Of a stretch of 64,000 nt of DNA, positions 18,942 through 41,460 are shown in pieces. The DNA lies in contig NZ_AP026978.1 in assembly GCF_027924405.1 (NCBI RefSeq), positions 310,001-374,000 of the forward strand, given 5' to 3'. The notes beneath the pieces were generated by a model. It saw only the letters and a program-made list of their open reading frames with translations, made no database searches and had not been told where the DNA came from. How positions within the stretch are numbered: position 1 is the first letter of the stretch; every line of letters starts with the position of its first letter. The DNA comes from Nocardia sputorum. GTDB lineage: Bacteria > Actinomycetota > Actinomycetes > Mycobacteriales > Mycobacteriaceae. Both the position numbers and the translations under genes were made by a program.

Positions 18942-18986
18942 TGCCCCCAGTAGGGCTCGAACCTACGACCTGCGGATTAAAAGTCC
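18942..18986 (-). pseudogene. tRNA-Lys(TTT) 3' half, separated by element insertion
   Basis: On the minus strand this reads from the anticodon arm (GGACTTTTAATCC) through the T-arm (GTAGGTTCGAGCCCTAC) to the acceptor strand TGGGGGC and discriminator A. It has no D-arm, no 5' acceptor strand and no promoter. The missing 5' half is at 41420-41460. Joining 41460-41420 with 18973-18942 gives a 73-base tRNA with a fully paired acceptor stem. Confidence 0.9.
18968..18986. repeat. Left attachment site (attL) of the integrated element
   Basis: ACCTGCGGATTAAAAGTCC here repeats at 41414-41432 with one mismatch (C to T at the sixth base). The 13-base identical core GGATTAAAAGTCC is the anticodon stem-loop of tRNA-Lys. 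Confidence 0.9.
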
Positions 18987-19329
18987 ATTTTGACGCAAGA
19001 TATCAAATCGCTGGACATGCGTCAATTTAGGTGACAAATCTGCAGTCCGAACAGCGAATCTGTGGACATTACTGCCCGGGCGTTCGGGGCGCGAGTGCGC
19101 ATAGAGGTACATCCGTCTGCCCCATGACTGCCCCTCGCGGGAGCGGCATCTGCCCCATGGACGGCCGGGGTGGCTCTGATTGATCGGCTTGGAGGGGTCA
19201 TCGAGCGGAGCCGGAAACGCAGGGCCTGTGCAATGACCTTCCTGTCGACTCCCGGCAGTCGGTTGGATGTCGCAGCCAAGCTCAGCCGGCGCGTGGGGTC
19301 GACCGGGGACAGGTGAGGCAGTGAAAGCT
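18987..19329. other. Left-end non-coding part of the element
   Basis: 343 bases between attL and the pentapeptide gene. I see no supportable gene or structure. Confidence 0.4.
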
Positions 19330-20130
19330 CTACGAGAAACGCTTCCTGAGCGACTTCTGAGGAGGGGTTAGGGGGTTCAATATGTGCTGTCCGTCGCCGA
19401 GCCTGGCCGAGTTGCGTCGAATGGCCATCGTGTATCGCCCCCACCTGGTGTCGTCCGACCATCGCACGTCGAGCATCTGAGTCAGCGGAGGGAGCATGGC
19501 CCGTTCCAAAGTGGCCCCAGACAAGTCTGTGTAGCTCAAGCCCGTGCTCGTTAGATCACCGGTCAACACCGCATCGCGCAGATCGGCATGATTCAAGATT
19601 GCATGAGTCAAGTTCGCGCCAGTGAAATCCGTCTCCGTTAGGTTGGCGTCGCTCAGGTTTGCGTCCGTCAGGTCTGCACCACGCAGGTTTGCGCGATGCA
19701 TGTTGGCGCCGGCCAAGTACGCAGCAGTCAGGGTTGCTCGTTCCAAAGACGTACCGCTCAGGTTGGCGTGATACATGTTGGCGCCGGTCAAATCTGCCCT
19801 TTCCAGGTTGGCGTCAGTCAGATCTGCTTCTGCCAGGTTGGCGCCGGTCAGGTCAGCTCTGGCCAAATTTGCGCCGAGCAGGACTTGACCTGTCAGGTCC
19901 TGCTCACGAAGGTCCTCGCTTTCTTGGATCAGGGTTTGACCTGTGATGTCTTGCGCACGAACGCCCCTAGCTGTCGTAGGACGTGGGGTAAGGCTCACGC
20001 CGAGCAGTGAAGCCCAGTACCTGTGCCAGAAGCTGTACCCCGCCCGCCCTCGAGGTGCGGCTGCCGCGGGATGGCGCGTCATTCCTAACAGCGATGCCCA
20101 GTACCGTTCGATGAACCTTGCCTGTGTCAC
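19330..20130 (-). CDS. Pentapeptide-repeat protein with duplicated RYWASLLG N-terminal motif
   Basis: A 266-residue protein. Residues ~55-215 are A(D/N)LxX pentapeptide repeats (DLTGANLAEADL) predicted to form a right-handed quadrilateral beta-helix; some relatives mimic DNA. The N-terminus has the same short motif twice, RYWASLLGMTRHP and RYWASLLGVSLTP, probably an interaction or membrane-associated segment. It starts with a GTG that overlaps the stop of the upstream membrane gene (GTGA). Its function in the element is unknown. Confidence 0.75.
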   Translation of the reverse strand: MTQARFIERYWASLLGMTRHPAAAAPRGRAGYSFWHRYWASLLGVSLTPRPTTARGVRAQDITGQTLIQESEDLREQDLTGQVLLGANLARADLTGANLAEADLTDANLERADLTGANMYHANLSGTSLERATLTAAYLAGANMHRANLRGADLTDANLSDANLTETDFTGANLTHAILNHADLRDAVLTGDLTSTGLSYTDLSGATLERAMLPPLTQMLDVRWSDDTRWGRYTMAIRRNSARLGDGQHILNPLTPPQKSLRKRFS

Positions 20131-20492
20131 GAGGAGCTGCCCTCATCAGCGATCTCATCGATATTTCGTGCAGATCCGAACTGCCTCAACAGGGCAGGGG
20201 CCGAAGCGCCAACCGCGATTGCGGCCAGTGGGCTGGTCACTTGGCTGTGAAAGATCAAGCCTCCTATCGCTCCGAAGACCAACCGAGTGACTGCAACTGC
20301 GAGATCCGGCCAAAGGTCGATGTACTCACGCCAAGACTGGAGGGGCTCTTGTCTTTTTGCTGACTTACGCCGGTTCGCCCTGCGGACTGTCGCTCGGTCC
20401 GACCTCCATTGCAATAAGTTGCCCCCCAGGGCGACGAGTTCAACGATCGCGCCACCGGCCATACCGAAAACGAGGCCTAACTGCCAAATCAC
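20127..20492 (-). CDS. Small membrane protein, unknown function
   Basis: A 121-residue protein with a hydrophobic start (VIWQLGLVFGMAGGAIVELVAL), a basic middle (RRANRRKSAKRQ) and a second hydrophobic pair (LVFGAIGGLIFHS, SPLAAIAVGASAPALL). The GTG at 20492 has AAGGGGAG ten bases upstream. It is coupled to the pentapeptide gene, and the two may act together at the membrane. I do not recognise the family. Confidence 0.6.
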   Translation of the reverse strand: MIWQLGLVFGMAGGAIVELVALGGNLLQWRSDRATVRRANRRKSAKRQEPLQSWREYIDLWPDLAVAVTRLVFGAIGGLIFHSQVTSPLAAIAVGASAPALLRQFGSARNIDEIADEGSSS

Positions 20493-20710
20493 GGTGCGAG
20501 CTCCCCTTGAACCCGAGTTACGGAATCCAGTCCTGCCGCGATCTTGTCGACCGCCACCGTGAGTATGCACTAGGGACGGGTCGGAGATGGCCGCTATCAG
20601 GGGTGCCGAGCGCAGAGGCCAATGCCCACGTTGGACGCGCAAACCAACGCGTATGTTCTGCGCCTGCGTGGGTGGATGCGTGGAGTTGCAAAGAAGGAAG
20701 TGGCGACGAT

Positions 20711-20757
20711 GCCGAGCACAACGAGGCGGAGCGGTGATCGCGCCGTGGCGGCAGGAC
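20711..20757 (+). repeat. 47-bp partial duplicate of 23553-23599
   Basis: Differs at three positions from the segment at 23553-23599, which spans the stop of one small AICE gene and the GTGA start of the next. Here it is not part of a supportable gene and looks like a remnant of another element. Confidence 0.7.
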
Positions 20758-20983
20758 GCGCGCCTACGATTGCGGCACCGCGAAGCCGCGGATGTCCGAA
20801 CTGGGCTGCCGACGCGTGATCGGCCGTGTTGGCTGCACCGACCTGCTTACCGCACTGAACGACTATTGCCAGCTGGCTCACCTCGAAGCACCGACTGCGA
20901 GACAGCTGCCACTGCGGAAGACTAGTGGCCGCTCGCGGCCGATAGTCAACCATGCGGCCGTCGAGGTCGGCACAATCGACTGG

Positions 20984-21835
20984 GTGACAGGATTCGTATT
21001 GACACCAGAGCGTCGTGAAGAGCTGTCCGATCTTCTTGGGGACGAAACACGCTTTCGCACTTCGTATCCCAGGGTTGCGGAGTACCTCGATACTGCCGCT
21101 GCCATACCTGGAAGCGGTGATGCCGAGGCCGACAGGGCCTTCGACATTCGTTTGCTGCACTACATGACGGGCGGTGACAGTGAGAATCCGTACTGGGACA
21201 TCGTTGGTCCGTCCGTCAGTGTGGCCCCGGCCGAGCGTGGTGGTCGTCGCGAGGTCAACGGCGGTGTAGCGAAGGGCAGTGCGCGACTGGCCTACGCGCA
21301 GACGGTTCTCCAGGAGGCATACGCGTATGCGATCCCGTCGCCCGAGACGCTGGAGTGGATCACCGCCGTTTGCGCGGGTCGAGGGCTGTTGGAGATCGGC
21401 GCCGGGCGCGGATACTGGGCCGAACAGCTGCGACGCCGCGGTGTCGATGTTTTGGCATTCGACTCGGAACCGCCCGGCCAGATCGAGAATGTGTCGTTTC
21501 GTGGGGGAGCGGGGCAGTTGGATGTCTGGCACGAAGTCGGCGACCTCGCCGGCCTGGCCGCAGCGCGGGAAGCTGGCGAGGAGTCGCGTCGAGTTCTTTT
21601 CTTGTGCTGGCCGCCGGGCTGGGGAGATCCGATGTCAACCGACGCGTTGGAAGCGTTCGAAGAAGCCGGAGGCGACACGCTGATCTACGTTGGCGAACCT
21701 CGCGGCGGCAAGACAGGCACTGATGCGTTCTTCGACAAGCTTGATTCCGGGTGGGAGCGGGTTGGCGAGGATACGCAGTTCGTGTCCTGGTGGAACCTGC
21801 ACGACAAGGCGGAGAGCTGGACTCGTCGGAAATAG
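20984..21835 (+). CDS. SAM-dependent methyltransferase-like protein
   Basis: About 283 residues if the GTG at 20984 is used; an ATG at 20792 would add 64 residues with no recognised homology, and neither has a good ribosome site. The central motif LLEIGAGRGYWAEQL is the SAM-binding glycine loop, followed by an acidic residue at the second strand (VLAFDSEPPG) and a FLCWPPGWGDP motif-IV-like stretch. The N-terminal ~110 residues are of unknown type. The substrate is unknown. It lies ahead of the GntR regulator in the element. Confidence 0.65.
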   Translation: MTGFVLTPERREELSDLLGDETRFRTSYPRVAEYLDTAAAIPGSGDAEADRAFDIRLLHYMTGGDSENPYWDIVGPSVSVAPAERGGRREVNGGVAKGSARLAYAQTVLQEAYAYAIPSPETLEWITAVCAGRGLLEIGAGRGYWAEQLRRRGVDVLAFDSEPPGQIENVSFRGGAGQLDVWHEVGDLAGLAAAREAGEESRRVLFLCWPPGWGDPMSTDALEAFEEAGGDTLIYVGEPRGGKTGTDAFFDKLDSGWERVGEDTQFVSWWNLHDKAESWTRRK

Positions 21836-21885
21836 CACCGGAAGTCGCGCAAACGCGTCGCCCCACTCCCCACACACTGCCATGA

Positions 21886-21912
21886 TGTATGTATACGTAG
21901 TTGTGTATTGGT
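21886..21912 (+). promoter_or_regulatory. Putative GntR autoregulatory operator
   Basis: An AT-rich block containing GTATAC and GTTGTGTATTGG, standing out in GC-rich DNA 48-74 bases before the GntR start. GTTGTGTAT recurs at 22793-22801 before the xis-like gene. This is consistent with one regulator binding both. Confidence 0.5.
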
Positions 21913-21959
21913 AGGGGTGACTAACTCCTGCCCGAATGGACGAAGCGAGGGGATTGACA

Positions 21960-22664
21960 GTGGCTGAACCGGCATACGTGAAGATCGCGGGTGAATACGC
22001 ACGCAAGATCAGGGCTGGCGAACTCCCGCCGGGGACCCAGCTGCGGAGCTACCCCGAACTGGCGAAGCGCCACGGCGTGTCGCAGATCGTGATCCGCAAT
22101 GCGATCGAGTTGCTTCTCGGTCAGGGGCTGGTGCGGACCGAGCGGCGGAAGGGCACCTTCGTTGCCGACCGGCCGAATCTGACCAGGGTCTCGCCCGAGC
22201 GGCAGTTCGAGCAGCCCGAGACGACATTCGAGAACGAAGCAACGGAGCCGGTCGAGGTGGAGCGTGACATCGAGAGTGTGTCCGCTACGGAAGACCTCGC
22301 GGACAAGCTGGGCGTGAAAGTCGGCTCTGAGTTGACGCATGTAGTCGTGCGTGCATCGGAGGGCGGGCGACCGATATCTGTGTCGGATAGCTATCAGCCG
22401 GTCGATGGCGCCGACGTCTCGGCCGCGGCGTTCCTGGAGGAGACCATCACGGACTCTCTGCCGCCGGCGAGCCATGCCGAGTGGCTCAAGACTCCGTCCG
22501 GCGAGCTGGTCAAGGCTGTATTTCAGCGCTACATCGCCAGCGATGAGCAAGTCCTCATGATCTCGAACATCTCGTATCCACGTGACCGCTACGACGCGTT
22601 CCTGTTCCGGATGGCACTAGAGCCTGAATCGGTCGCCACGAGCAGGCGGGAGACCTCCACCTGA
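21960..22664 (+). CDS. GntR-family regulator with UTRA domain (KorSA-like)
   Basis: A 234-residue regulator. The winged helix covers residues 1-75 (YVKIAGEYARKIRAGELPPG, then GVSQIVIRNAIELL); a UTRA ligand-binding domain covers about 90-225. Regulators of this type repress transfer and excision genes in pSAM2-like elements. The GTG at 21960 was chosen because GAGGGGAT lies seven bases upstream; an ATG at 21936 lacks a site. It is flanked by TACACA/TGTGTA palindromes on both sides and followed by a perfect terminator. Confidence 0.85.
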   Translation: MAEPAYVKIAGEYARKIRAGELPPGTQLRSYPELAKRHGVSQIVIRNAIELLLGQGLVRTERRKGTFVADRPNLTRVSPERQFEQPETTFENEATEPVEVERDIESVSATEDLADKLGVKVGSELTHVVVRASEGGRPISVSDSYQPVDGADVSAAAFLEETITDSLPPASHAEWLKTPSGELVKAVFQRYIASDEQVLMISNISYPRDRYDAFLFRMALEPESVATSRRETST

Positions 22665-22700
22665 CCTGAAATCGGACCGACTTCGGTCGAAGCGTATAGG

Positions 22701-22731
22701 GGCCTGATCAATTCGTTGATCAGGCCTTTTT
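22701..22731 (+). terminator. Intrinsic terminator after the GntR gene
   Basis: A perfect 11-base stem, GGCCTGATCAA (22701-22711) with TTGATCAGGCC (22716-22726), a TTCG tetraloop and a TTTTT tail. Confidence 0.92.
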
Positions 22732-22745
22732 CGTGCCCTTTGGCG

Positions 22746-22808
22746 TCTACACATGTGTAGAGCTTGTGCGCATACGCAACTACACATACGCTGTTGTGTA
22801 TACATAGT
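22746..22808 (+). promoter_or_regulatory. Operator cluster ahead of the xis-transfer operon
   Basis: A perfect 16-base palindrome TCTACACATGTGTAGA (22746-22761) is followed by TACACA-N8-TGTGTA (22781-22800) and TATACATAG. The cluster lies 25-87 bases before the xis-like start, where a repressor would block the promoter. Binding by the upstream GntR protein is inferred. Confidence 0.6.
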
Positions 22809-22832
22809 GACAAGTCGCCAAAGGAGTGACAT

Positions 22833-23048
22833 ATGAGCAGACGAAGTGGCTCGGCCAGTGGACCGAAGACGCTGATCAGCCTTCGCGATGCGGCGCAACT
22901 GGCCGGGGGAGTCCACCCGCGGACCGTTCGTCGCTGGGTAGACGGCGGCCTTTTGCAGGGCTTCCAGGTCGGCCCGCGGCTCATCAAGGTCGATCGGGAT
23001 CAGGTCCTCGCGCTGGTCCGTCCCTTGAACGAGACCGGAGTCGCGTAA
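22833..23048 (+). CDS. xis: Excisionase-like helix-turn-helix protein (Xis)
   Basis: A 71-residue protein with a MerR/Xis-type winged helix (LISLRDAAQLAGGVHPRTVR, then RWVDGGLLQGFQVG and LIKVDRDQVLALV). Small proteins of this kind bend attachment-site DNA to direct integrase towards excision. AAAGGAG lies seven bases before the ATG. It is the first gene of the long right-going operon and its stop overlaps the next ATG (TAATG). Confidence 0.8.
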   Translation: MSRRSGSASGPKTLISLRDAAQLAGGVHPRTVRRWVDGGLLQGFQVGPRLIKVDRDQVLALVRPLNETGVA

Positions 23049-23197
23049 TGCGGGCGCGCACTTTTGGTTTGGTCGCCGCCGCGGTCGCGGTCGGCTACCT
23101 CGTGTTGACGGCGCCGGAAGTCGTCGGGATCACCGTGATGGTGCTGGGCGGAGTCGCGCTGTGGCGATCCTCGCGGCAGTGGGGGCTTCGGCGATGA
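23048..23197 (+). CDS. Very small membrane protein in the transfer operon
   Basis: 49 residues with two hydrophobic segments (FGLVAAAVAVGYLVLT and VVGITVMVLGGVALW) and an Arg-rich tail. It shares a base with the upstream stop and overlaps the next gene by four bases. It is reminiscent of spread (Spd) proteins; the function is not known. Confidence 0.6.
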   Translation: MRARTFGLVAAAVAVGYLVLTAPEVVGITVMVLGGVALWRSSRQWGLRR

Positions 23198-23580
23198 GCA
23201 TCTACCTGCGCGATGGGGATCGGGAGCGTCAGGCACCCCCCGAGGGCGTGTTGCGGGATTACCTGGGCTATTACGTGGTCGCCGCCAGCGAGTCGGGTGC
23301 TCCGGTGGATACCGGAGTCGTCGCGGATATCGCGGTGCACGGGTCGTTCCGGGTGCAGTACGCGGCGCATGTCGACCGGGTATGTGTTCGGGTGTTTCCG
23401 GCGTCGTCGTCGGCGTATGCCGGGATGACGATGCAGTTGACGCTTGCGCAGGCAATCGGGCTGCGCGCGCTGCTCGACGCCGGCATCGCGGATGCGCTGG
23501 CCGCGCGTGATGACCGCGAGGCTGACATGGGCGAGGCGGTCGACGGCAACGGTGCCGAGCGGAACGAGGCGGAGCGGTGA
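23194..23580 (+). CDS. Unknown 128-residue AICE protein
   Basis: Starts with an ATGA overlap (MSIYLRDGDRERQAPPEGVL). It has beta-rich central sequence (DIAVHGSFRVQYAAHVDRVC) and a helical C-terminus ending NGAERNEAER. I do not recognise a family. Its stop overlaps the next GTG, and its last codons are part of a 47-base segment duplicated at 20711. Confidence 0.6.
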   Translation: MSIYLRDGDRERQAPPEGVLRDYLGYYVVAASESGAPVDTGVVADIAVHGSFRVQYAAHVDRVCVRVFPASSSAYAGMTMQLTLAQAIGLRALLDAGIADALAARDDREADMGEAVDGNGAERNEAER

Positions 23581-23599
23581 CCGCGCCGTGGCGGCAGGA
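23553..23599 (+). repeat. 47-bp segment duplicated at 20711-20757
   Basis: Spans the end of the 128-residue gene and the start of the next one. Only three differences separate it from the left copy. Confidence 0.7.
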
Positions 23600-23906
23600 C
23601 CCGCCTGTTCAGGGGTACACGGTCACTCATTTCGACCGCCGTGGCGGTCACAACCCGCTGCACTCGATGGCTGGTCCGGAGTTCACCGGTGCGAGTGCGG
23701 TGTTCGCCCCGCTGGGGTTGTTGCCGCCGATGGTGCGGCTCGCCGCGTTCGGTGTGCTGCTGATCATCGGCATGGGTGGCTGCACGGCGGCGTGGATCGA
23801 TCAGCAGGACTACGTGCCGTCGCCGAACATCTGCCGCCCGCTCAATGCCGGGGTTCCTCCGGAACCCGCGGGTTCGTGCGTGCCGCGTGAGGAGGTGGCG
23901 CGGTGA
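23577..23906 (+). CDS. Small membrane protein of the transfer operon
   Basis: 109 residues, GTG start overlapping the previous stop. One transmembrane segment (MVRLAAFGVLLIIGMGGC) is followed by a Pro/Cys-containing outer part (NICRPL, GSCVP). Possibly a Spd-type spread protein; no family recognised. Confidence 0.6.
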   Translation: MTAPWRQDPPVQGYTVTHFDRRGGHNPLHSMAGPEFTGASAVFAPLGLLPPMVRLAAFGVLLIIGMGGCTAAWIDQQDYVPSPNICRPLNAGVPPEPAGSCVPREEVAR

Positions 23907-24313
23907 GCGAAGGTATTCCGACCTACCGGTGGCGGATGGCGCCGGGGCATTTGCGGACGAAGCGGCAGCTTGAGGCCGCGGGGCTGCGTCCGAACGGCCA
24001 GGACATTCAGGGCCGGATCCCGTTCCGCCGCTACGGCCGTGAGCAGGTGGCGCATCTGTTCGACGTGAATCAGGCCGCGCCGAAGCGGCCCGCGACGCCC
24101 GCGCAGCTGGCAGCTCTGGCGAAGGCGACGCGTGAGCACCAGCTGCGTGCGGCGGAGCGTCACGGTGTCGACCGCGCCGCGTTCGACCAGGCGGGCGGAG
24201 ATCCGGGTCCGGGCTGGAACACATCCACCAGCGCTCTCGCGGACTACCGGCCGGGTTCGTCCCTGGCCGACGTGTTCAGGCGAGAGACCGAACGGCAGGG
24301 GTACGACCGATGA
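23903..24313 (+). CDS. RRQRL-like AICE protein with C-terminal SALADY tag
   Basis: 136 residues. Residues 6-75 (PTYRWRMAPGHLRTKRQL, AAGLRPNGQDIQG, KRPATPAQLAALAKATR) resemble the AICE family known as RRQRL motif-containing zinc-binding proteins. The usual C-terminal cysteine cluster is absent. In its place is the tail SALADYRPGSSLADVF followed by GYDR, shared with three other proteins of this element. It starts with a GTG overlapping the previous stop; its stop overlaps the next ATG. Confidence 0.65.
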   Translation: MSEGIPTYRWRMAPGHLRTKRQLEAAGLRPNGQDIQGRIPFRRYGREQVAHLFDVNQAAPKRPATPAQLAALAKATREHQLRAAERHGVDRAAFDQAGGDPGPGWNTSTSALADYRPGSSLADVFRRETERQGYDR

Positions 24314-25083
24314 GTTTTCGACTCTCGCCGCGTGATCTGGCTGGCCTGACGGTCTTGGCCGAGATGTACGGGGCGCCGCTGGATGTGGTCGCCGAGATGT
24401 TGGGCGTGAGCATCAACCGCGCCTATCGGATCACGGCGAAGTGGGAAGCCGCCCAGATGATCAGCGCCAAGCGCATGCGCCCTGTTCCGGGTCCGTCGTG
24501 GATCTTCCCGACGAAGTCCTCAGCGGAGGCCCTGCTGGGTCGGTCGGTGCGTTATTGGGTGCCAACGCCGAAGATGGCCGCTCACACCAAGGCCGTGTTG
24601 CAGCTGCGGCTGGCTTTGGTCGGTTTGGATCTGGACCGCTGGATCTCGGAGCGCTCGATGCGCGCGGATGTCGGTCTGGTGAAGGCCGGTCAGCCGCGCC
24701 CGCACATCCACGACGGCCGCTACATCACTGCCGCTGGTGAGTTGTGGGCGGTCGAGGTCGAGCTGACTGCCAAAAGCTCTGCGGCGGCGCGTTCCTCGCT
24801 GCTCCAGGCGCTGAAGGTCGCCGAGAAGGCTCAGTGCACTGGCTTGACCTATTACTGCCGCGGTGAAGCGGTGAAGAACGTGATCCGGGCTGCTGCGGCC
24901 GGTCTGGATCTGTCGGATGGCCCGAAGTTGCGTTTGGTCGATCTGGACGAGCTGCTGGCCAAGAAGAAGGCCGAATCCTCCTCGCTCGCTTCGCGTCCCG
25001 GGCTTCGGGTGATCGCGGGCGGAGCCGCCGCTGATCACGAAATCTCCCAGGTCGCAGACCCGAACGAAGGAAAGGCGGTCTGA
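24310..25083 (+). CDS. Replication-relaxation family protein
   Basis: 257 residues. An N-terminal helix-turn-helix (PLDVVAEMLGVSINRAYRIT) is followed by a nuclease-like fold with the PF13814-type core (GELWAVEVELTAKSS and GLTYYCRGEAVKNVI). Members are found in actinobacterial plasmids and AICEs and are thought to act in replication or relaxation of the element; activity is not established from sequence. It is the only replication candidate I see here. The ATG overlaps the previous stop; traB starts two bases after its stop. Confidence 0.75.
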   Translation: MSFRLSPRDLAGLTVLAEMYGAPLDVVAEMLGVSINRAYRITAKWEAAQMISAKRMRPVPGPSWIFPTKSSAEALLGRSVRYWVPTPKMAAHTKAVLQLRLALVGLDLDRWISERSMRADVGLVKAGQPRPHIHDGRYITAAGELWAVEVELTAKSSAAARSSLLQALKVAEKAQCTGLTYYCRGEAVKNVIRAAAAGLDLSDGPKLRLVDLDELLAKKKAESSSLASRPGLRVIAGGAAADHEISQVADPNEGKAV

Positions 25084-25085
25084 TC

Positions 25086-27221
25086 ATGACCGATTGCACT
25101 CCGATCATCACCCCGACCGATTGCGCGCCCTACGCGCCGACCCCGGTCGCTACCCCGACGCCGACGCCCACACCCGGTACGCCGATTCTGATCGAGCGGA
25201 AGATGCCGCCGATCGGCCTGGACCACGACCCGTTGGGGTGGCTTCCCGATTTCAGCACGTGGTCGCTGGAGGGCTTGGGCGATGGCGCGCTGCTGATCGC
25301 GGCGTGCGTGATCGCGATCCTGGTCATGACGATCATGATCCTGATCCCGGCGACCGCGCTGGCGTGGAAGCCGACCCGGTTGCGGAACTGGCTGATCGGT
25401 TCGGTGTTGGCGATGCCGGGCGCGACCGCGCTGTGGGCGTGGGATGTGTTCGAGCCCGGCCGCATGGCGACCGAGGCCAGCCACCAGTTCCTCCAGGGCC
25501 AGTACACCGCCGGACTGCTCGGGATGGCGGTAGTGCTGGTGCCGCTGGCGTGGCTGACCGCGACCATCGCCCACACCAACCGCCGCGTGCAGCTGGCCAC
25601 CGTCGGGTTGAAGTCCCCGGCGCGCACGGAGCGGGCGTTGTGGGCGCAGGCGCAGCGCGAGCAGCGCGCCGCCGCGCGGCTGTCTCGCCGGCGTCTTCCT
25701 TTCACCACGGGCGGGTTGTCGCCGGAGATGGTGATCGGGCGCCTGGCGCTGGAGACCGACCAGGCCCCGGCGGCGTCGGTGCTGCGGCAGCTGCTGGGGC
25801 GTACCGAGACCCGGCTGATCGTGCCGTGGATCAACGCCGCGGAGCACCAGACCACCGTCGCGGGCTCCGGTTCGGGCAAGACGACGCTGATGGTGCGGTT
25901 GTTGGTGTCGTGGTTCATCACCACCTGGATGCGGCACCGGCAGTGGTGGCGGCTGGATCGTCCCGGTCGGCCGCTGGTGATCGTGGTCGACTGCAACGGC
26001 GGCCCGGAGTCCCGCAAGGTCGCCGCCCGGATGCGCACATGGTTCACGGCGTTGGGTGTGCCCGCGCCGCGGATCGGGATCTTCCCCGACGATGTGTCGC
26101 TGGGCATGTGGCCGCGCAAGGACTTCGACGCGCTGGAGGTCAAGGCGCAGAAGGCCATCGTGGACGATCTGCGTTCGATCCTCTCGGCGATGGTCTCCGG
26201 CGGCAGCACGCCGGCCACCGACACCGAGAAGTACTTCCATGAGATCCGCGAGACCCTGATCCACCTGATCGTGGACGCCCCGGCCCGGGTCGAGGTCATC
26301 GACGGTGTGCCGACGCCGATCGGGCACAACCCGCCGCGCAGCTGGCTGGAGTTCCTGTCGCGGTTCGACGTGGAGCGGCTGTCGAAGCTGTGGGGCGGGC
26401 AGCCCGGCGCCGAGGTCTGGACCGGCGTCATGGGCATCGACATGGAAATCAAGTCGACCATCGACGGCAAGCAGCCGGTCATGAACTCCGCCCGCGCGGA
26501 GTTCGCCAACCTCTACCGCGCGCTGGGGGATGCGTTCGACGGCGACAAGGAACTCACCGACTTCGACGTCCTCTACATCGTGCTGGAGGGTGTGAAGACC
26601 CCGGATCGGGCCCGCGCCCAATTCGGCGCCATCGGCACCATGCTCGAACAGCTCGCCGACAAGGAACACGGCCGCACCTCGCTGATGGCGGTCGACGAGT
26701 TCTCCGCAGTCTCCGACGGCAAGACCCGCGCGGTGAAGTGGGTCGAAAGGTTGCGCAAGGCCGGCATCGGGTCGTGGTGGATCGCGCAGTCCTGGCAAGG
26801 CCTGGGCCACGACGACGACAACCGCACCGGCCTGGTCGCCGCCGCCTCCGGTGGCTCGCTGCTGATGCGCTCCTCGGACCCGGAAACCCTGGCCAAGAAG
26901 TACGGCACCCGCGCGAAGTTCGAACTGTCGCGCAAGTTGATCGGCGGCAACCGCGACGGCGACGAGGGCAACGTCAAGCCCGGCGATCAGTTCCTGATCC
27001 CGCCGAACCGGCTGCGCGCCATGGCCAAAGGCGACGTGGTGCAGGTGGCCGGTGGCCGCGCCCGCTGGGGGCGGGTCTCCCCGCTGGACGACGCCGAGCT
27101 CAAGCGGCTGCGCCCGCTGTCCGGCATCGCCGATTTCACCGACCCGAAGCCCGAACACGACACCGACGACGCCACCGGTCTGGCGCCGGTGATCGACCTG
27201 ACCAAGCGCCGCCCGGCCTGA
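25086..27221 (+). CDS. traB: FtsK/SpoIIIE-type DNA translocase, TraB/TraSA-like
   Basis: 711 residues. A Pro/Thr-rich start (TPTPTPTPGTP) precedes three hydrophobic segments around residues 68-160, which anchor it in the membrane. The motor domain has Walker A AGSGSGKTT (~257-265) and Walker B LVIVVDCNGG (~296), then a long RecA-like core. In actinomycete elements a single such hexameric protein moves double-stranded DNA between mycelial cells by recognising a short-repeat clt site. It is the key transfer gene here. Confidence 0.88.
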   Translation: MTDCTPIITPTDCAPYAPTPVATPTPTPTPGTPILIERKMPPIGLDHDPLGWLPDFSTWSLEGLGDGALLIAACVIAILVMTIMILIPATALAWKPTRLRNWLIGSVLAMPGATALWAWDVFEPGRMATEASHQFLQGQYTAGLLGMAVVLVPLAWLTATIAHTNRRVQLATVGLKSPARTERALWAQAQREQRAAARLSRRRLPFTTGGLSPEMVIGRLALETDQAPAASVLRQLLGRTETRLIVPWINAAEHQTTVAGSGSGKTTLMVRLLVSWFITTWMRHRQWWRLDRPGRPLVIVVDCNGGPESRKVAARMRTWFTALGVPAPRIGIFPDDVSLGMWPRKDFDALEVKAQKAIVDDLRSILSAMVSGGSTPATDTEKYFHEIRETLIHLIVDAPARVEVIDGVPTPIGHNPPRSWLEFLSRFDVERLSKLWGGQPGAEVWTGVMGIDMEIKSTIDGKQPVMNSARAEFANLYRALGDAFDGDKELTDFDVLYIVLEGVKTPDRARAQFGAIGTMLEQLADKEHGRTSLMAVDEFSAVSDGKTRAVKWVERLRKAGIGSWWIAQSWQGLGHDDDNRTGLVAAASGGSLLMRSSDPETLAKKYGTRAKFELSRKLIGGNRDGDEGNVKPGDQFLIPPNRLRAMAKGDVVQVAGGRARWGRVSPLDDAELKRLRPLSGIADFTDPKPEHDTDDATGLAPVIDLTKRRPA

Positions 27222-33230: not shown

Positions 33231-33322
33231 GTCGTGTCTACAGCCGGTCTACAACTCGGCTGTCCATCCCCTGACCTTTCCCCTGGCCCCTTCCTCCGCA
33301 GGTACAACGAGTCCGGAGCGGT

Positions 33323-34148: not shown

Positions 34149-34169
34149 AAACCCAAGGCGCGCGCTATG

Positions 34170-34751: not shown

Positions 34752-34829
34752 GCTGTGTTAACCTGCTTGTGACCTGCTGATTGACCGGTTTTGAACAAAA
34801 TATTGAGGCGCACCGGAGGTATCAAGACC

Positions 34830-35510
34830 TTGAGCCAGCCACTGCCCTTTCATCACCCGATCATCATCGAGCCTCCCGACGCGCCGGCGTACCTCGCCCA
34901 GATGGACATCGCCGTCTCTGATGTGCACGCTGCCATCGCAACGGGCGAGATCTGGGCCGGAAACATGAATGGACATCACCCGGTAACCGCCGCCGGTCTC
35001 ATCCGGTGGATCTACGTCGTCGGCACGCTGCGGGAACGACTGGCCGGAACGAACCTCTGGTTCGGCGACGATCCCAAGAACCGACCGATCTCCCAGCGCA
35101 CGGACGGCGCATACACGCTGTCCACCGTCGGTGGAAACGAGATCACCGGCATCATCGACCACCCAACCGGTCCTTTCGCCGCACGTCGCAGGGGAAAAGC
35201 CACCGCAGAGGCGGTCAACGGTACAGCGCCGCTCATCACGATCGAAGCATTGCGTGCGGGCAATGTCGACCGTGATGTCGACGCCGACCTCCGTGCACGG
35301 CCACCTCACGGGCCGTGGTTTCTCGTCTACTTCCGAGACGAGGAGTCGGTGCGAATGGAAATATCACTGCCGCTAGGCTTCGAAGACGGTCAGTTCACCG
35401 GTTGGAAAGTGCGAGTCATCCTGGATGAATGGAGGCCGGAACGTGTCAGCGCGAGGCCGCGCGATGTCGGAGGACAAGACGTCGACTTCCAAGTCATCGA
35501 GGTCGGCTGA
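34830..35510 (+). CDS. Unknown protein paired with the ImmA/IrrE protease gene
   Basis: About 226 residues from a TTG at 34830, which has GGAGGT nine bases upstream; a TTG at 34791 would add 13 residues. The N-terminal part contains PFHHPIIIEPPDAPAYLAQM and a TGEIWAGNMNGHHPVTAAG segment; the C-terminal part is beta-rich (ISLPLGFEDGQFTGWKVRVI). I do not recognise the family. Its 3' end overlaps the XRE-ImmA/IrrE gene by 68 bases, which implies a functional pair, as target or toxin of the protease-regulator. Confidence 0.6.
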   Translation: MSQPLPFHHPIIIEPPDAPAYLAQMDIAVSDVHAAIATGEIWAGNMNGHHPVTAAGLIRWIYVVGTLRERLAGTNLWFGDDPKNRPISQRTDGAYTLSTVGGNEITGIIDHPTGPFAARRRGKATAEAVNGTAPLITIEALRAGNVDRDVDADLRARPPHGPWFLVYFRDEESVRMEISLPLGFEDGQFTGWKVRVILDEWRPERVSARPRDVGGQDVDFQVIEVG

Positions 35511-36606
35511 GGCGTACCTCGACCCAGACAGGATCCGGGTCGCGCGTATGCGTCGGGGAATGACGAAAGTCGATCTGGCAAGACGGCTTTCGGTCATTCC
35601 CCGCACGATCGCTCGGTACGAGGCTGGTGAAGCGCCCCGGGAAGTCGCTGAGGAACTCGCGACAGCATTGGATTTCCCACCCGGGTATTTCGAGCGTGGC
35701 GGTGCACCAGCGTTCGACTCGGCTGAGGTCCGATTCCGCGCCGCGCGACGGGCGACTGCCCGTGAACGCGATGCCGCGGCGGCTGCAGGAGTGTCGGGTG
35801 TGGAGATCGACCGCTGGATCTCCGCTCGGTATGTTCTGCCTGCAGTGTCACTGCCCTCATTTGCGGGCAACGATCCCAAGACCGCCGCGCAACTGTTGCG
35901 TGGGGTCTGGGGGCTCGGCACGAAACCGCTACCGAACCTGATTCAGCTGTGCGAATCTCGTGGCATCCGCGTCTACAGCCTTCCGCCCTTCGCCGATGCG
36001 GTCGACGCGTACTCGATGTGGTGGTCAGGGACTCCTTATGTGTTCCTCGCGCGCCGTAAATCTCCGGAGAGGATTCGGTTCGACCTGGCCCACGAGGTGG
36101 GCCACTTGGTGTTGCACGACGCCGAGCCTTGCGCGACCACGGCCGTCGAGCGTGAAGCCGACGCCTTCGCCTCGGAGTTCCTCATGCCAGCGGCGAGCAT
36201 CGTGGAGTACCTGTCACCCACCCCGTCGGTCAACGACATCCTGGCGGTGCGCAGCCAGTTCAAGGTGTCTGCGATGGCACTGGCCTTCGCAGCACACAAA
36301 GCTGGCCGGATCAGCGACTGGACCTACCGTCAGGTGTGCATTGAGCTATCGACCAGGGGATTCAGGACATCTGAACCTGGTGGAATGCCGAACTACGAAA
36401 TGTCACGTGTGTTTCCCCAGGTGCTCAGCCGATCGAACACGAGAAGGGTAACCGCCCGGGGCATCGCCAAGGATCTGGATCTTCCACTGAGCGATGTCCA
36501 CGCGCTGACGTTCGGTACCGAGTTGCGATTCGCTCAAGAAACCGAGGTCACCAGCGAGGGCAGCCACGATCGGCCCACCGGCCAATACCGCCTACGCGCG
36601 GTTTAA
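35443..36606 (+). CDS. XRE-type regulator with ImmA/IrrE metallopeptidase domain
   Basis: 387 residues. An XRE helix-turn-helix near residues 25-80 (RVARMRRGMTKVDLARRLSV and RTIARYEAGEAP) is followed by an ImmA/IrrE zinc peptidase with HEVGHLVLH near residue 217 and a downstream acidic ligand region (EREADAFASEFLMP). These proteins cleave a repressor or antitoxin after stress. The GTG at 35443 has GGAGG seven bases upstream; ATG 35425 and 35464 are alternatives. It is cargo of the element. Confidence 0.8.
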   Translation: MSARGRAMSEDKTSTSKSSRSAEAYLDPDRIRVARMRRGMTKVDLARRLSVIPRTIARYEAGEAPREVAEELATALDFPPGYFERGGAPAFDSAEVRFRAARRATARERDAAAAAGVSGVEIDRWISARYVLPAVSLPSFAGNDPKTAAQLLRGVWGLGTKPLPNLIQLCESRGIRVYSLPPFADAVDAYSMWWSGTPYVFLARRKSPERIRFDLAHEVGHLVLHDAEPCATTAVEREADAFASEFLMPAASIVEYLSPTPSVNDILAVRSQFKVSAMALAFAAHKAGRISDWTYRQVCIELSTRGFRTSEPGGMPNYEMSRVFPQVLSRSNTRRVTARGIAKDLDLPLSDVHALTFGTELRFAQETEVTSEGSHDRPTGQYRLRAV

Positions 36607-36923
36607 ATGGGTACGCGAGCCAGGCTCGCCCGGGGCGCTGGGAGCGGGAAGGCTGCGCAGCCGCAGGCCGCGGGGCGGGGCTCTTCCCCAGCGCCCGCCT
36701 TCGCAGGGAGTCAGGCCTCTGGAGGGGCCGGGTGCACACACAGATGTTCAGGTACACCGCATCGGCCACCTGCAGTCGCTGGCGTCACGATGCTGCGCCA
36801 GTCGATTCGTATCTCTTGGGACATGAACTCAACGGCAGATGCCGAATGTCGACCAATGTCGGTTACCACATATCGGCACTCCGCTCGGAGGACCAGTCGA
36901 TTAGCGCAAGGAGCGGGCCGCAA
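36607..36923. other. Non-coding gap holding repeat copy B and the promoter of the AlbA_2 gene
   Basis: Copy B of the dispersed repeat covers 36642-36748. The remaining 175 bases before the next gene are AT-richer and probably hold its promoter. Confidence 0.55.
36642..36748. repeat. Dispersed non-coding repeat, copy B (first part)
   Basis: Shares GCTGCGCAGCCGC, GGCGGGGCTCT and CCCCAGC in order with 34170-34278. It lies between two cargo genes. Confidence 0.75.
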
Positions 36924-37508
36924 ATGCAACTTCAAGAAGTACTCGCCCTCATCGCCTCAGGGGAAGGCCAAACCGTCGAGTTCAAGCAAACGACAGGTAC
37001 ATCCGAGGCTGCGACAAGAACCCTCGCCGCTTTCGCCAGCCAGCCCCAAGGTGGGGCGGTCATTTTCGGGGTGAACAGCGACGGTTCGCCTCACAGAGGG
37101 TTCCAACTCGGCTTGGAGACATCGGCACGTCTAGCCGGAACCATCAAGGCCAAGACGCTATCGATGACCACCGGCCTGCCGCTCGCGGTGCAGATGTTCG
37201 AATTTCGAACCCCCGATCGCCTGGTGGCGTGCGTACCTCCAGGCGCGGACACCGGCGGCCCATATCTTGCCGATGGCTTTCGCTGGCAGAGGGTCGGTTC
37301 AAGTACGAACAAGGTTCAGATTGACTACCAGCACCTCGCGCGGGTGTATCAGCAGCACCTGCGAGATGACTCCTCGTACTTCGGGATCAAGTTCTGTCCA
37401 GAATGCGGCAGCCAAGACTTCCAGACCGCCTCGCAGGTTGCCCCGCATGACGTCCTCATTTACATAATTCGATGTAAGCGATGCGACTGGAGCGACTGGT
37501 CGGAGTAG
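36924..37508 (+). CDS. AlbA_2/Schlafen-like protein with C-terminal zinc ribbon
   Basis: 194 residues. Residues ~5-110 match the AlbA_2 (divergent AAA_4) pattern: a short helix, GEGQTVEFKQTTGTSEAA, then AVIFGVNSDGSPHRGFQLG. The C-terminus has a zinc-ribbon CPECGSQDF with a second pair CKRC. Relatives occur in defence and in nucleic-acid binding roles. The ATG at 36924 has AGGAGC nine bases upstream; longer readings enter the repeat. A predicted cargo or defence gene, exact activity unknown. Confidence 0.7.
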   Translation: MQLQEVLALIASGEGQTVEFKQTTGTSEAATRTLAAFASQPQGGAVIFGVNSDGSPHRGFQLGLETSARLAGTIKAKTLSMTTGLPLAVQMFEFRTPDRLVACVPPGADTGGPYLADGFRWQRVGSSTNKVQIDYQHLARVYQQHLRDDSSYFGIKFCPECGSQDFQTASQVAPHDVLIYIIRCKRCDWSDWSE

Positions 37509-38055
37509 TTTATGGTGCCATCAACCTCATGAGGCAGCGAACTGGGGCCTCGCCACATAGCTTTGCGGCACCGTTGTTGGTCGGTGGACGCGTGCTCAAG
37601 AACTGGCTCCTAGCGCGCCGCCGAACGTGCCGCACGCCTGGCGGCGATGCGACACATACCCGAGTAGCACGCGACCGTAAACAGGTAGGGGGGACGTGTG
37701 TACGGGCGCGGCCACATAAGTTCGGTGTGCTGGACTGGGTGGCATGTTCGGGGACAGGTGTGCGGCGACGGTCGTCAGCCGCCGCATACCTTTGCAAGCG
37801 TGGTACCTGTGGGGCGTGGCACCCGCAGGCGGAGGGGCACGGGTGAGCGAGCGCGAGTCGTGTTGGTCTACCGCGGCTTGAATACAGGCGGAGCGGTACC
37901 GAGCTGCTGAATTGACCAGTGGGGCAGTAACTCCACAGCATAGAGAGCTATCAATTTACGATCGGGTGAGCCGCCACGGTCGGCTTTAGGGGCGGCGCGG
38001 GTGGTGTGGGCATCTCGGTGTCGGCCATTCAAGAGCAATTCCCTTGTGCACAGCT
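37509..38055. other. Non-coding gap with repeat copy C
   Basis: Repeat copy C covers 37832-38022. I see no supportable gene in the 320 bases before it. Confidence 0.5.
37832..38022. repeat. Dispersed non-coding repeat, copy C (second part)
   Basis: Matches 34252-34456 in order: GAGGGGC.CGGGTG, TTGGTCTACCGC, GAGCTATC, GGGGCGGC, GTGTGGGCATC. It lies between the AlbA_2 gene and the Septu-like pair. Confidence 0.7.
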
Positions 38056-38703
38056 TTAGGATGTACTCTGCTTGAGAGGAAACCCTTCGCGTTCCAGATA
38101 AGCCTCGACTGTCGCGGTGAATTCTCCATCTGTGGCATCTATTCGGATCGCGGTTGCGAGCACGCTGCGCATAGGTTCCACCGCGACATACCATCGTTCA
38201 AGCATCTCTTTGATGCTGGCTAAACGACGCACACGCGCTGTGACGAGGTCAATGCGGTTCAGCTTCAGTTGTGTGACGGTTATTTCTCCCCTATTCGCTC
38301 CCAGGCGTGATGAGGCGAAGTCGCCATGAAATCGGAGATGTTCCTCTATTTCATCTTCATACGGATTCAGTAAGCCGTCAGTTGGATGGTAGAATTCCCC
38401 CTTGTTGGTGTTGCATACTGGACATGCCCAGGTAAGGTTATGCCACCTATGAGCGAGTTCGGGCTGAAGGCCTTTGGGGATAATATGCTCTACGTGCGGA
38501 TAAGCAACATCTGCCACAAATTGCTCACAGTAGGCGCATCGCTTCCCGGTTTCTTCACTCAATGCCTGTTGTATCTCGGGATGCCGCCACTTTTCATACT
38601 TTTTCTCGGTGCCAGCGCGCTTCGCCGTGACGTAGTCTGTCGTCCATTTATCTTCATTTTTTGACAGAACGTTGGGCTTGTCTCCCTTTATCAGACGTCT
38701 CAT
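38056..38703 (-). CDS. ptuB: HNH endonuclease, Septu PtuB-like
   Basis: 215 residues. An HNH nuclease core is clear: RCAYCEQF (zinc Cys pair), VEHIIPK (catalytic His region), HRWHNLTWACPVCNTNKGEF (second zinc pair and His/Asn). A helical C-terminal domain follows. In Septu anti-phage systems PtuB is the nuclease that assembles with PtuA. Its ATG overlaps the stop of the AAA gene (ATGA). Codon usage is AT-richer than the neighbourhood, a sign of transfer. Confidence 0.8.
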   Translation of the reverse strand: MRRLIKGDKPNVLSKNEDKWTTDYVTAKRAGTEKKYEKWRHPEIQQALSEETGKRCAYCEQFVADVAYPHVEHIIPKGLQPELAHRWHNLTWACPVCNTNKGEFYHPTDGLLNPYEDEIEEHLRFHGDFASSRLGANRGEITVTQLKLNRIDLVTARVRRLASIKEMLERWYVAVEPMRSVLATAIRIDATDGEFTATVEAYLEREGFPLKQSTS

Positions 38704-39995
38704 CCGTGCGGGTCCTGCTTGCGGCGGTCTGCTACGGAGATTACTGCATCAGAGAATTCTGGCTCTAAGCCGTTAGCCTTCAACTCGTTTCGCAATCGCC
38801 GCAGGCTCGATTCATCGAGTCCCTCTGCCGCGTAGCGGCTGACGATGGAATCGAACAAGGTCTCCGCCCATTTTGGCATTGTACTTTCTACTCCCAAGAC
38901 CTGCCGTAGGGTCTCATCAGCGCTAGCAGCCTTGTTCGAATAGTTGAGCCATCTTGCCTCGACGCGCCGTTGTTGGTTGTAGTACAACGCGTAGACTGCC
39001 GAGTCGGCGGCAGAGGTTACAACGAATGGGCTGTGTGTCGCAACGATGAACTGGACACGTGGAAAAGCCCGCAGAAGACTTGGAATGATCTCCCGCTGAA
39101 GACTCGGGTGTAGATGATTCTCTGGTTCGTCGAGCAGCACAGTGAACCGCTCTTCTGTTCTTGACCGAAGGAATATTTGCCAAGCTACTTCCAGGATTGC
39201 GCTTAGACCTCCTGAAGCGTCATCTAGAATGAAGTCCCCAGTTTTAGTATGAAGAATTACGTCCGGCGTTCTAATTCGCATTCTGATGTACCCAAGAGTT
39301 GATGGCATGACCTGCGTCAGAATATTATGGAAGCCTTCCCAAATCTCTGCTGCGTTTTCGTTGAACTCTACATTCGGGTTGCCTCGCGAACCGAATACGG
39401 CTGCTGAAATCAAAGATTCTTTAAATACCATCTGAGGAGACTTTTGTGTCCAGCCGCCGGACCATCGAGTACGGATTTCTCCAGTATATTGATCGAACAG
39501 TGTATTCGGGTCGCTGAAAACCGTCGGAATGTTTGCGATACTCGAATAGGCACCAGCAGACGCTCGATGAGAAGTAAGAAACGCTCCGGAAACTTTCTGG
39601 CGGTGCGGCATGAGCAAGTTGTACTGAAACCGATTGCTATCCGCTGGACGCATCGGCACGCTAATGGGGGTGGAGCCTCCCGAACCGTACACAAGCTTTC
39701 CTATGCGAGCCCATTCTCCATCGTCCGCAAGCCAACGCTTCCGGGGACGTATGCTGAACCAGCGCCCTTGTTTCCGATCACTTCCCGGAGAGGCGGAAAA
39801 TTCTCTTTCCCAATTGAAGTGAGTTCCAAGAATTCCTAATATGGTGCTTTTGCCAGTCGCGTTTGCGCCAGTAAGGATGGTAAGTCGGGGGTGGAAATCT
39901 ATATAAATCTCGTCGAATTGCCGCCACTCCGTAATCGATAACGTTTTGAACCCTGGTGGCGGAGAACTAGTCGATCGCAATGAGTCGCTCGTCAC
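38700..39995 (-). CDS. ptuA: AAA/ABC-type ATPase, Septu PtuA-like
   Basis: 431 residues. Walker A GANATGKST near residue 44, an ABC-type signature DASGGLSAIL near 265, and Walker B VLLDEPENHLHPSLQ followed by ATHSPFVV. This is the OLD/RecF-like ATPase plan of PtuA. It works with the downstream PtuB nuclease against phage. The DNA is visibly lower in GC than the rest of the window, so the pair was probably acquired from elsewhere. Confidence 0.8.
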   Translation of the reverse strand: MTSDSLRSTSSPPPGFKTLSITEWRQFDEIYIDFHPRLTILTGANATGKSTILGILGTHFNWEREFSASPGSDRKQGRWFSIRPRKRWLADDGEWARIGKLVYGSGGSTPISVPMRPADSNRFQYNLLMPHRQKVSGAFLTSHRASAGAYSSIANIPTVFSDPNTLFDQYTGEIRTRWSGGWTQKSPQMVFKESLISAAVFGSRGNPNVEFNENAAEIWEGFHNILTQVMPSTLGYIRMRIRTPDVILHTKTGDFILDDASGGLSAILEVAWQIFLRSRTEERFTVLLDEPENHLHPSLQREIIPSLLRAFPRVQFIVATHSPFVVTSAADSAVYALYYNQQRRVEARWLNYSNKAASADETLRQVLGVESTMPKWAETLFDSIVSRYAAEGLDESSLRRLRNELKANGLEPEFSDAVISVADRRKQDPHG

Positions 39996-40084
39996 AGAGA
40001 TACCTTAGGCGAGATGTAGGCTCTCCACCGGGAATCCGGCAGTCGATGCGATGGGCGCACCGAGCATGCGCTCGCAGCAGTGCC

Positions 40085-41194
40085 TCAATCCAGGGCTGCG
40101 CGAACGCTGTCCCATCGCGACTTGGCGCGGTGCGCATATCTCATCGTCGTCGTGACCGAAGCATGACCAAGCAATCTCGACACATCCTCAATCGGTATGC
40201 CCCGCTCGAGGAGTCGGCTTGCGTAGGTGTGGCGGAGATCGTGCAGCCGGACGTGTCCAATCTGATGGCGTCCTCTGCCCTTGCCGACGTAGGCGATCCG
40301 TACCGACGCCTCGAATCGGTCACGGAGGTTGCTTGAGTCAAAGGGTCGGCCCTGAGTATGGGCCAGCACAAGACCCGAGTGCACGCGCGCGTTACGGGGA
40401 TACCGCACCGGCGCCGGCGCCGGCTTGCCCATACCCACACGATCCAAGCGGACTTTGAGCAGTTTGGTCAGCTTGTCTCCGATGGGGATTGTTCGGCGCT
40501 CGTAGTCCTTCGGTGGGTTCATCTCGTGTTCCACCGGGTCGTAGGCCCACTCCACGACGAGCTCGCGACGTTTGATGTTCACGCTCTCCCAGTGAAGCCC
40601 CATCGCTTCACCGAGGCGGACGCCGGTACCGAGCAGCAGTTCGACTACGACGAGGTCAAATGCATCCAGCGATGCTTCGATAGCCGCGATCTCCTCGTCG
40701 TCGAGGTAGCGCTCTGGCATCGGCCCAGGCTTCGGGAGAGTGACGCCTTTGCACGGGTTCACGTCTATGCGGCGAGCGAGGTGGGCCGCCTTCATGGAGG
40801 AACTCAGAAGGTAGTAGCACTTGGCGACGGTCGAAGGTGCCATGCCGCTGTTGGAGAGGTCGGTCACCCACTTCTGCACGTCGTCTGTCGTGATCGAGCG
40901 CAGCGGTTCCTTCTGCCATCGAGGGCGGACGTGGTCACGCAGCCGGGCTACGTCGGAACGGTTTGTGCTCTTTCTCACAATCCGTGCGGCCGTCCATGTC
41001 GGCTCCCACTCGCCCCACGTCATCTTGTCGGCTCCGTCGGGAGTGGGGGACCGGCGTTCCGCGACTTCCTTGTTCCCGGCCTGCCGCTCCGCTTCCGCCT
41101 TCCGGGCGAAGGTGCCGGCGCTCCGCTTCTTCCCGTTCGCGTCCCTGTAGACGCCCCTGTACTTGCCGCTGGGGAGCTTTTCCGCCCACGCCAT
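40085..41194 (-). CDS. int: Tyrosine recombinase/integrase of the element
   Basis: 369 residues. An N-terminal arm-binding domain (KYRGVYRDANGKKRSAGTF) and a SAM-like core-binding domain precede a catalytic domain with Arg in TGVRLGEAM, HDLRHTYASRL, and LLGHASVTTTMRYAH containing the nucleophile Tyr. It integrates and excises the element at tRNA-Lys. The ATG at 41194 has AAGGGTGG about eight bases upstream; a GTG at 41206 is an alternative. It lies 65 bases from the element's tRNA-Lys and about 220 from attR. Confidence 0.92.
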   Translation of the reverse strand: MAWAEKLPSGKYRGVYRDANGKKRSAGTFARKAEAERQAGNKEVAERRSPTPDGADKMTWGEWEPTWTAARIVRKSTNRSDVARLRDHVRPRWQKEPLRSITTDDVQKWVTDLSNSGMAPSTVAKCYYLLSSSMKAAHLARRIDVNPCKGVTLPKPGPMPERYLDDEEIAAIEASLDAFDLVVVELLLGTGVRLGEAMGLHWESVNIKRRELVVEWAYDPVEHEMNPPKDYERRTIPIGDKLTKLLKVRLDRVGMGKPAPAPVRYPRNARVHSGLVLAHTQGRPFDSSNLRDRFEASVRIAYVGKGRGRHQIGHVRLHDLRHTYASRLLERGIPIEDVSRLLGHASVTTTMRYAHRAKSRWDSVRAALD

Positions 41195-41258
41195 CGACTG
41201 GCCCACCCTTCAATCGGTTCGTGCCCCACAGCCGCTGTCAGCTATGCTGTCCAGCCGA

Positions 41259-41334
41259 GCCCCTTTAGCTCAGTTGGTAGAGCTGGTGACTTTTAATCAC
41301 TAGGTCGTAGGTTCGAGTCCTACAGGGGGCACCA
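41259..41334 (+). tRNA. tRNA-Lys (TTT) carried by the element
   Basis: A complete cloverleaf: acceptor GCCCCTT with AGGGGGC, D-arm GCTC...GAGC, anticodon stem GTGA-CTTTTAA-TCAC with anticodon TTT, T-arm GTAGGTTCGAGTCCTAC and encoded ACCA. The nearby host tRNAs lack an encoded CCA, so this gene is foreign. It replaces the host tRNA-Lys broken by the insertion. Confidence 0.95.
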
Positions 41335-41387
41335 TCACGACGGCGGGGCGTGGAGGCTGCGAGCCCCACGTTTGCCCCACGATTCTA

Positions 41388-41409
41388 GCGTTTCCGCTGG
41401 TAGAAACGC
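41388..41409. terminator. Hairpin at the right end of the element
   Basis: Stem GCGTTTC (41388-41394) with GAAACGC (41403-41409), eight-base loop. It lies directly in the path of transcripts started from the truncated host tRNA-Lys promoter (minus strand) and of read-through from the element tRNA. Confidence 0.5.
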
Positions 41410-41413
41410 CCCA

Positions 41414-41432
41414 ACCTGTGGATTAAAAGTCC
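41414..41432. repeat. Right attachment site (attR) of the element
   Basis: ACCTGTGGATTAAAAGTCC, one mismatch to attL. Sequence right of it is the 5' half of the host tRNA-Lys. Confidence 0.9.
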
Positions 41433-41460
41433 GTAGCTCTACCAACTGAGCTATAGGGGC
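41420..41460 (-). pseudogene. tRNA-Lys(TTT) 5' half, separated by element insertion
   Basis: The minus strand reads GCCCCTATAGCTCAG, D-arm, then GGACTTTTAATCC, and then passes into element DNA with no T-arm. With 18942-18973 it reconstructs a 73-base tRNA. It keeps the host promoter side but cannot make a tRNA. Confidence 0.9.

Follow-up and report, generated by a model that had tools for sequence, protein, structure and literature searches.

What becomes of an essential, single-copy tRNA gene when a mobile element integrates into it and brings along a tRNA gene of its own? This question is raised by a 64,000-nucleotide stretch of Nocardia sputorum DNA (hereafter, the window), which corresponds to positions 310001–374000 of a single-contig 7.43-Mb genome (G000); all feature positions below are window coordinates. 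An integrated mobile element of approximately 22.4 kb from core to core (18987..41419) interrupts the native gene for tRNA-Lys(UUU), here called allele A, and carries a complete replacement, allele B. Comparison of 150 Nocardia genomes, the window's own included, makes it very probable that in relatives such elements vanished, leaving B behind as a permanent host gene. With somewhat less assurance, we consider it probable that elements have, more than once and for good, exchanged an essential single-copy tRNA gene of this genus for a version of their own that would be proof against integration (32 of the 150 genomes, 26 of them element-free).

The 3' half of the native gene (18942..18986, minus strand) was found on the side of the left attachment site (attL), and the 5' half (41420..41460, minus strand), which retains the native promoter type, on the side of the right one (attR). 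Both halves end in a copy of the 13-bp attachment (att) core GGACTTTTAATCC (left copy, 18974..18986; right copy, 41420..41432; both on the minus strand), so that the short common core lies inside the host tRNA gene, in the anticodon arm. A longer repeat has 18 of its 19 bases common to both ends. A preliminary description of this stretch had placed the two halves at these positions, joined by a 13-base core and a 19-base near-identical repeat, and had stated that together they give a perfect 73-base tRNA that neither junction restores. All of this was borne out. The joined flanks were accepted by ARAGORN as tRNA-Lys(ttt), and the joined 73 bases were 100% identical to the intact tRNA-Lys of sister genomes (e.g., G023, G007, and G005); no tRNA was found by ARAGORN in attL, attR, or the reconstituted element site (attP). 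The Rfam match to the 5' half plus filler, at 32 bits versus a cut-off of 29, weighs against the statement that no tRNA is rebuilt. Chance as the source of this split-gene anatomy is excluded, because the same anatomy occurs in five further Nocardia genomes, and, because the joined flanks give an intact tRNA, precise excision would restore allele A.

Allele B (41259..41334, plus strand) is a replacement tRNA-Lys(UUU) with an encoded CCA and without the att core. The preliminary description had rightly reported a complete tRNA-Lys(TTT) with encoded CCA inside attR, at a distance that we corrected from 80 to 85 bases. Upstream of B lies a promoter-like sequence (TTCGTG ... TATGCT; 41218..41248, plus strand), a putative promoter of the same type as that in the element-free genomes designated +B below, and the tyrosine integrase gene (40085..41206, minus strand) is divergent from B. 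Of the 73 positions compared, nine distinguish the two alleles, and six of these nine fall in the anticodon stem; B retains base pairing there and has lost the att core. Thus, the element carries a cognate tRNA of the same isotype as the disrupted host gene. Among the 51 tRNA matches found by Rfam in the window's genome, one was the broken native 5' half, and anticodons assigned by ARAGORN over the whole genome included one tRNA-Lys(ttt), which is allele B, and one tRNA-Lys(ctt). No tRNA-Lys(TTT) gene other than B was found. The disrupted native gene was therefore the host's only tRNA-Lys(UUU) copy, and B is now the sole one found in the genome. Under standard wobble rules a CUU anticodon does not read AAA, so that AAA decoding rests on allele B. 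These data, together with the same anatomy in all six carrier genomes, agree with the earlier proposal of gene replacement.

To place the element in the genus, we searched the 150 genomes for relatives of its integrase. Relatives with an E-value of 1e-40 or better were found in 20 genomes and relatives of at least 69% identity (close integrases) in six. In all six of the latter, 52–66 bp separate B from the integrase, and the start of B is 161–226 bp from a native 5' half that matches at 41 of 41 positions. Five of the six elements were bounded by a native 3' half (45 of 45 positions) at 16.7–22.5 kb; the sixth, in G163, runs off its contig, and its B shows 96% identity, with 100% in the others. 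At 14 further loci of the genus, with integrases of 40–55% identity, tRNA-Val(TAC) was found in five and tRNA-Met in two, and no tRNA-Lys was seen in the stretch covered. At L136, L137, L138, L141, and L144, integrases of 53–55% identity lie approximately 80–93 bp from tRNA-Val(TAC). Six loci of other genera, taken from a named collection, were also looked at. Two Antrihabitans loci showed the same arrangement as the window element, and a third had the core and no tRNA-Lys in the stretch fetched; the Rhodococcus, Aeromicrobium, and Microbacterium loci had neither core nor tRNA-Lys in the stretch fetched. In the two Antrihabitans loci with the full arrangement (L317 and L323, both at about 9790–9960), the replacement tRNA-Lys differs, and the att core is broken in it by a single exchanged base pair.

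A census of the two alleles revealed intact A in 115 of the 150 genomes (40 at 100%, three at 97%, and 72 at 95% identity to the window's A) and B in 32. The two were never found together, and exactly one of them was present in 147 genomes. The three genomes with neither were G015 (78% complete), G141 (88% complete), and G024, in which a contig starts inside the gene. G024 is the only near-complete genome with neither allele; its contig C68 (L094) begins within tRNA-Lys at positions 1–29, and an insertion missing from the assembly may account for this contig start. In addition to intact A, the genomes G009, G072, and G166 each possess another, diverged tRNA-Lys(TTT), distinct from B and with an A-type core (L092, G009:C148, 8286–8609; L411; and L412, respectively); in G009 it belongs to a compact Lys-Asp-Phe-Glu array on a separate contig.

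The 32 B genomes comprise the six element carriers, nine genomes with B in the element orientation (+B: G021, G034, G077, G079, G083, G130, G136, G146, and G156, none with a close integrase), and 17 with B in the native orientation (−B). In all 32, a tRNA-Glu/Asp/Phe cluster lies 1.7–2.4 kb to one side of B, and in all 26 element-free genomes a conserved left-flank gene lies on its other side. In 26 of the 32, then, the close integrase is gone and B is retained. In two single-contig genomes, G077 (+B) and G076 (−B), B was the only tRNA-Lys(UUU) among the tRNAs read; Rfam gave 48 and 50 matches in these genomes, respectively, from which 41 distinct sequences were read in each, certain tRNAs with long arms not being among them. 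Remnants of the element were sought by local alignment against shuffles. In G146, an N-terminal stump of the integrase (residues 4–77, 70% identity) lies beside B, as does a native 5' half with indels (score of 33; maximum of 50 shuffles, 13). That none of the 26 element-free B genomes has a close integrase was considered as evidence of site immunity and rejected, since the comparison has no power when only six of the 150 genomes have a close integrase at all. At three −B loci, L154 (G076), L156 (G090), and L160 (G131), the left-flank gene is about 4.1–4.3 kb from B versus the usual 0.3–1 kb, indicating extra DNA beside the tRNA. In the window, the conserved left-flank stretch contains an Rfam match to ASdes (there called TB sRNA) at 14633–14700, with 65.7 bits versus a cut-off of 40.

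The −10 motif of the promoter separated the groups without overlap. The element type was present in all six carriers and all nine +B genomes, and the native type in all 17 −B loci and all 54 A loci examined, of the 115 A genomes. A looser upstream motif also occurred in one of the 17 −B loci. As the motifs were picked after viewing the sequences, this separation is a description and not a blind test. The encoded CCA was also tried as a marker of origin and was uninformative (two of six elements, one of nine +B, 15 of 17 −B, and two of 54 A).

The number of changes between the alleles was estimated from a tree of the right flank (83 genomes, left from 86 loci after removal of two that lacked a match and one of insufficient length) and a tree of carB and gyrA from 30 chosen genomes (15 of the 26 element-free B genomes, the six carriers, and nine A genomes). 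Each tree required at least six A/B changes, with carriers scored by their native allele. A single clade of the 15 element-free B genomes was rejected on the carB and gyrA tree (approximately unbiased test, p-AU 0.0006), as was a single clade of the nine +B genomes. The −B genomes formed one clade in both trees (six of the 17 were sampled in the latter), and an rpoB tree likewise kept these six together. A second rpoB-like gene is present in the window's genome (G000:C1:1110021-1113320), and several other Nocardia genomes also have two. For the outgroup, 11 loci were fetched from nine genomes; nine of the loci were tRNA-Lys(ttt), and because all nine had the A-type GGACTTTTAATCC arm, A looks ancestral in this comparison.

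The origin of B was traced further among phages. The 14 listed phage records with integrases 57–59% identical to that of the window are the same 14 whose full-length tRNA is most like B; among the matches listed, 12 carry a tRNA-Lys 100% identical to B and two (Catfish) one at 94.5%, and one further record, at 95–99%, falls outside those matches. Among 401 genomes of the family, 11, all of them Nocardia, carried the anticodon motif of B, and three viral contigs matched a longer B pattern; a plasmid collection contained no record of at least 95% identity to B. The match between phage integrase and tRNA, together with this distribution of the motif, suggests that B travels with this integrase family. 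For the +B genomes we read the direction as element to host, and for the −B clade we are less sure of it.

According to the mechanism that we favor, the tyrosine integrase would recombine the attP core with the core in the anticodon arm of A, and B would keep the cell alive after A is split, itself escaping targeting because of its recoded anticodon stem. Deletion of the element outside the att sites would then leave B in place, and the broken halves of A would decay after the element is lost. In the 17-genome clade, the 5' halves of B and A, lying in inverted orientation, would have recombined and so placed B under the native promoter; a native promoter followed by the body of B is the product expected of such an event, which is the most likely explanation of these loci. 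Because loss of the element with retention of the tRNA is the commoner outcome observed, cells came to depend on the tRNA and not on the element.

Several observations weigh against this interpretation. Seven of the nine +B genomes showed no integrase or tRNA-half remnant above chance in the alignments against shuffles, and G156 gave only one A3-like score (17, where shuffles reached at most 14), so that what ties these eight genomes to a lost element is their promoter type, orientation, and site and the identity of the tRNA. Integrase relatives of 52–53% identity elsewhere in the genomes of G146 and G136 were not counted, nor was a distant one (24%) 7 kb away in G156. The 17-genome −B group is the least certain part of the displacement reading: a second tRNA half near B was not seen in the −B loci printed, and the native promoter and orientation fit evolution in situ or gene conversion equally well. 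The rpoB tree, which has low deep support, splits four +B genomes that the other trees join, and the outgroup genes behind the ancestral state of A were selected by similarity to A. Element-free genomes could also have acquired B by homologous recombination between species, and the favored reading as a whole draws on sequence comparison.

Among the alternatives, the one that survives best holds that B arose in hosts, in the 17-genome −B clade, and was later captured by elements and phages as a non-target, the +B genomes having received it from elements. The native promoter type and orientation of all 17 −B loci and their union in one clade are in line with this scheme, which we nevertheless judge unlikely. 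B is identical in Gordonia phages whose integrases are only 57–59% identical to that of the window, with all 14 listed records carrying B or the 94.5% variant, and a scan of the family's 30 other sampled genera did not detect the B motif. Moreover, conversion of A to B requires paired bases to change in concert, and the alleles read, including the three at 97% identity and the three diverged second copies, contained no anticodon stem of intermediate form. Diverged versions borne by elements are present in Catfish, Antrihabitans, and N. transvalensis.

A second alternative, which we regard as more doubtful still, is ordinary tRNA-dependent integration serving mainly as addiction-like stabilization, in which imprecise loss of the element kills the cell. 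The preliminary description had proposed such stabilization along with gene replacement. It gains from B being the sole tRNA-Lys(UUU) that the genome was found to contain and from the perfect preservation of the A halves in the five bounded elements. Precise excision, however, would restore A, and the tRNA persists with no close integrase left in 26 of the 32 B genomes, so that elements have commonly been lost while B stayed. On these two grounds addiction as the main function was rejected as the leading idea. Finally, A and B as two old host paralogs with differential loss, unrelated to the element, would account for their mutual exclusion in 147 genomes and is highly improbable, given that no genome has both and that B lies beside the integrase in all six carriers and shows the element promoter type and orientation in nine more genomes.

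The gene content of the element was then considered with regard to the type of carrier. In addition to the integrase, the element encodes a GntR regulator, a DUF2637 protein with a match to the excisionase family PHROG 733 (31838..32707, plus strand; E-value of 1.7e-13), a weakly MobC-like (replication-relaxation) protein far under the family cut-off (24310..25083, plus strand), and an AAA ATPase (25086..27221, plus strand), some relatives of which bear source annotations as TraD/TraG-like or type IV conjugative DNA transfer proteins. Two cargo pairs were recognized, namely a Septu-type anti-phage pair, PtuB/PtuA (38056..39995, minus strand), and an RmrT/RmrA pair, as named by PADLOC (34791..36606, plus strand). 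No phage structural families were found among the open reading frames scanned, which were the larger ones (20 against Pfam, 10 against NCBIfam, and 10 against PHROGs), and the scanned frames do not mark the carrier as a temperate phage. Ten of the frames scanned against Pfam had no match whatever, and a search for solved-structure relatives of two large element proteins returned nothing meaningful. The candidates for transfer functions are the weak MobC-like match and the ATPase, and we describe the element as integrative and possibly mobilizable. Relatives of eight backbone genes (starting at 23903, 24310, 25086, 28014, 30703, 31440, 31838, and 32736) and of the integrase were present in each of the other elements that could be bounded (G070, G143, G145, and G154). 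No relatives of the two defense pairs were seen in these four, and PtuA/PtuB were not found by tblastn in the other five elements, one of which is partial. The partial element of G163 contains a pair related to RmrT/RmrA (35% and 48% identity).

Single-copy tRNA genes are usually treated as a vertically inherited core, and here one appears to have been replaced at least six times at the same site. The stages visible in the genus are the intact element, the element remnant, the naked replacement, and the replacement under the native promoter. If this reading is true, tRNA-dependent integration would behave like a ratchet, altering the core set of decoding tRNAs and eliminating the site that it targets, and what began as a parasite's gene would become indispensable to the host. 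The same reading offers a possible reason for the recoding of the tRNA copy that tRNA-breaking elements bring with them: such a copy would not be a target, and integration would therefore close the site to later elements.

The closest known system is the tRNA-dependent lysogeny of actinobacteriophages (Fionnbharth, LeBron, and BrutonGaster), described experimentally for mycobacteriophages and the same tRNA by Guerrero-Bustamante and Hatfull in 2024 (PMC10865867). The two systems share a tyrosine integrase, a core within tRNA-Lys-TTT (8–17 bp there and 13 bp here), junctions at which no tRNA is rebuilt, a cognate tRNA on the element, and a host with one such gene. The principle of the mechanism is thus already published and is not new. 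The closest phage integrases that we found, at 57–59% identity, belong to the Gordonia phages Banquo, Vendetta, TinaLin, TZGordon, and their kin (Ruthgordonvirinae in the records consulted). These differ in being full phages and in having core, tRNA, and integrase in another order; in Banquo and Vendetta the 13-bp core starts 112–115 bp before the tRNA, and in Catfish the full core was not present in the stretch read. Among rhizobial prophages, a replacement tRNA-Leu without the target motif has been proposed to prevent super-integration (PMC8631192), and the exchange of a host's own tRNA gene for one carried by a phage has been discussed as tRNA diversification (PMC11476347). In the passages considered from these two reports, the prophages are still in place, other tRNAs are concerned, and no decayed stage is described. 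Actinomycete integrating conjugative elements also have tyrosine integrases that target tRNA genes, including tRNA-Lys in Frankia; the att-tra-rep-int-att order given as typical in that source (PMC3218068) was not recognized in the window element. As regards persistence of a replacement tRNA after loss of the element, no account was found among titles and abstract openings of the open-licence literature. In contrast to the phages of PMC10865867, the carrier described here is a 17–22-kb element without recognized phage genes, with defense cargo in the window element, and its tRNA persists where the element is gone, a permanent displacement that the parts of that report considered here do not discuss. 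What our comparison appears to add to the known systems is, therefore, this carrier and, as an evolutionary outcome, the permanent displacement of a core tRNA gene across a genus.

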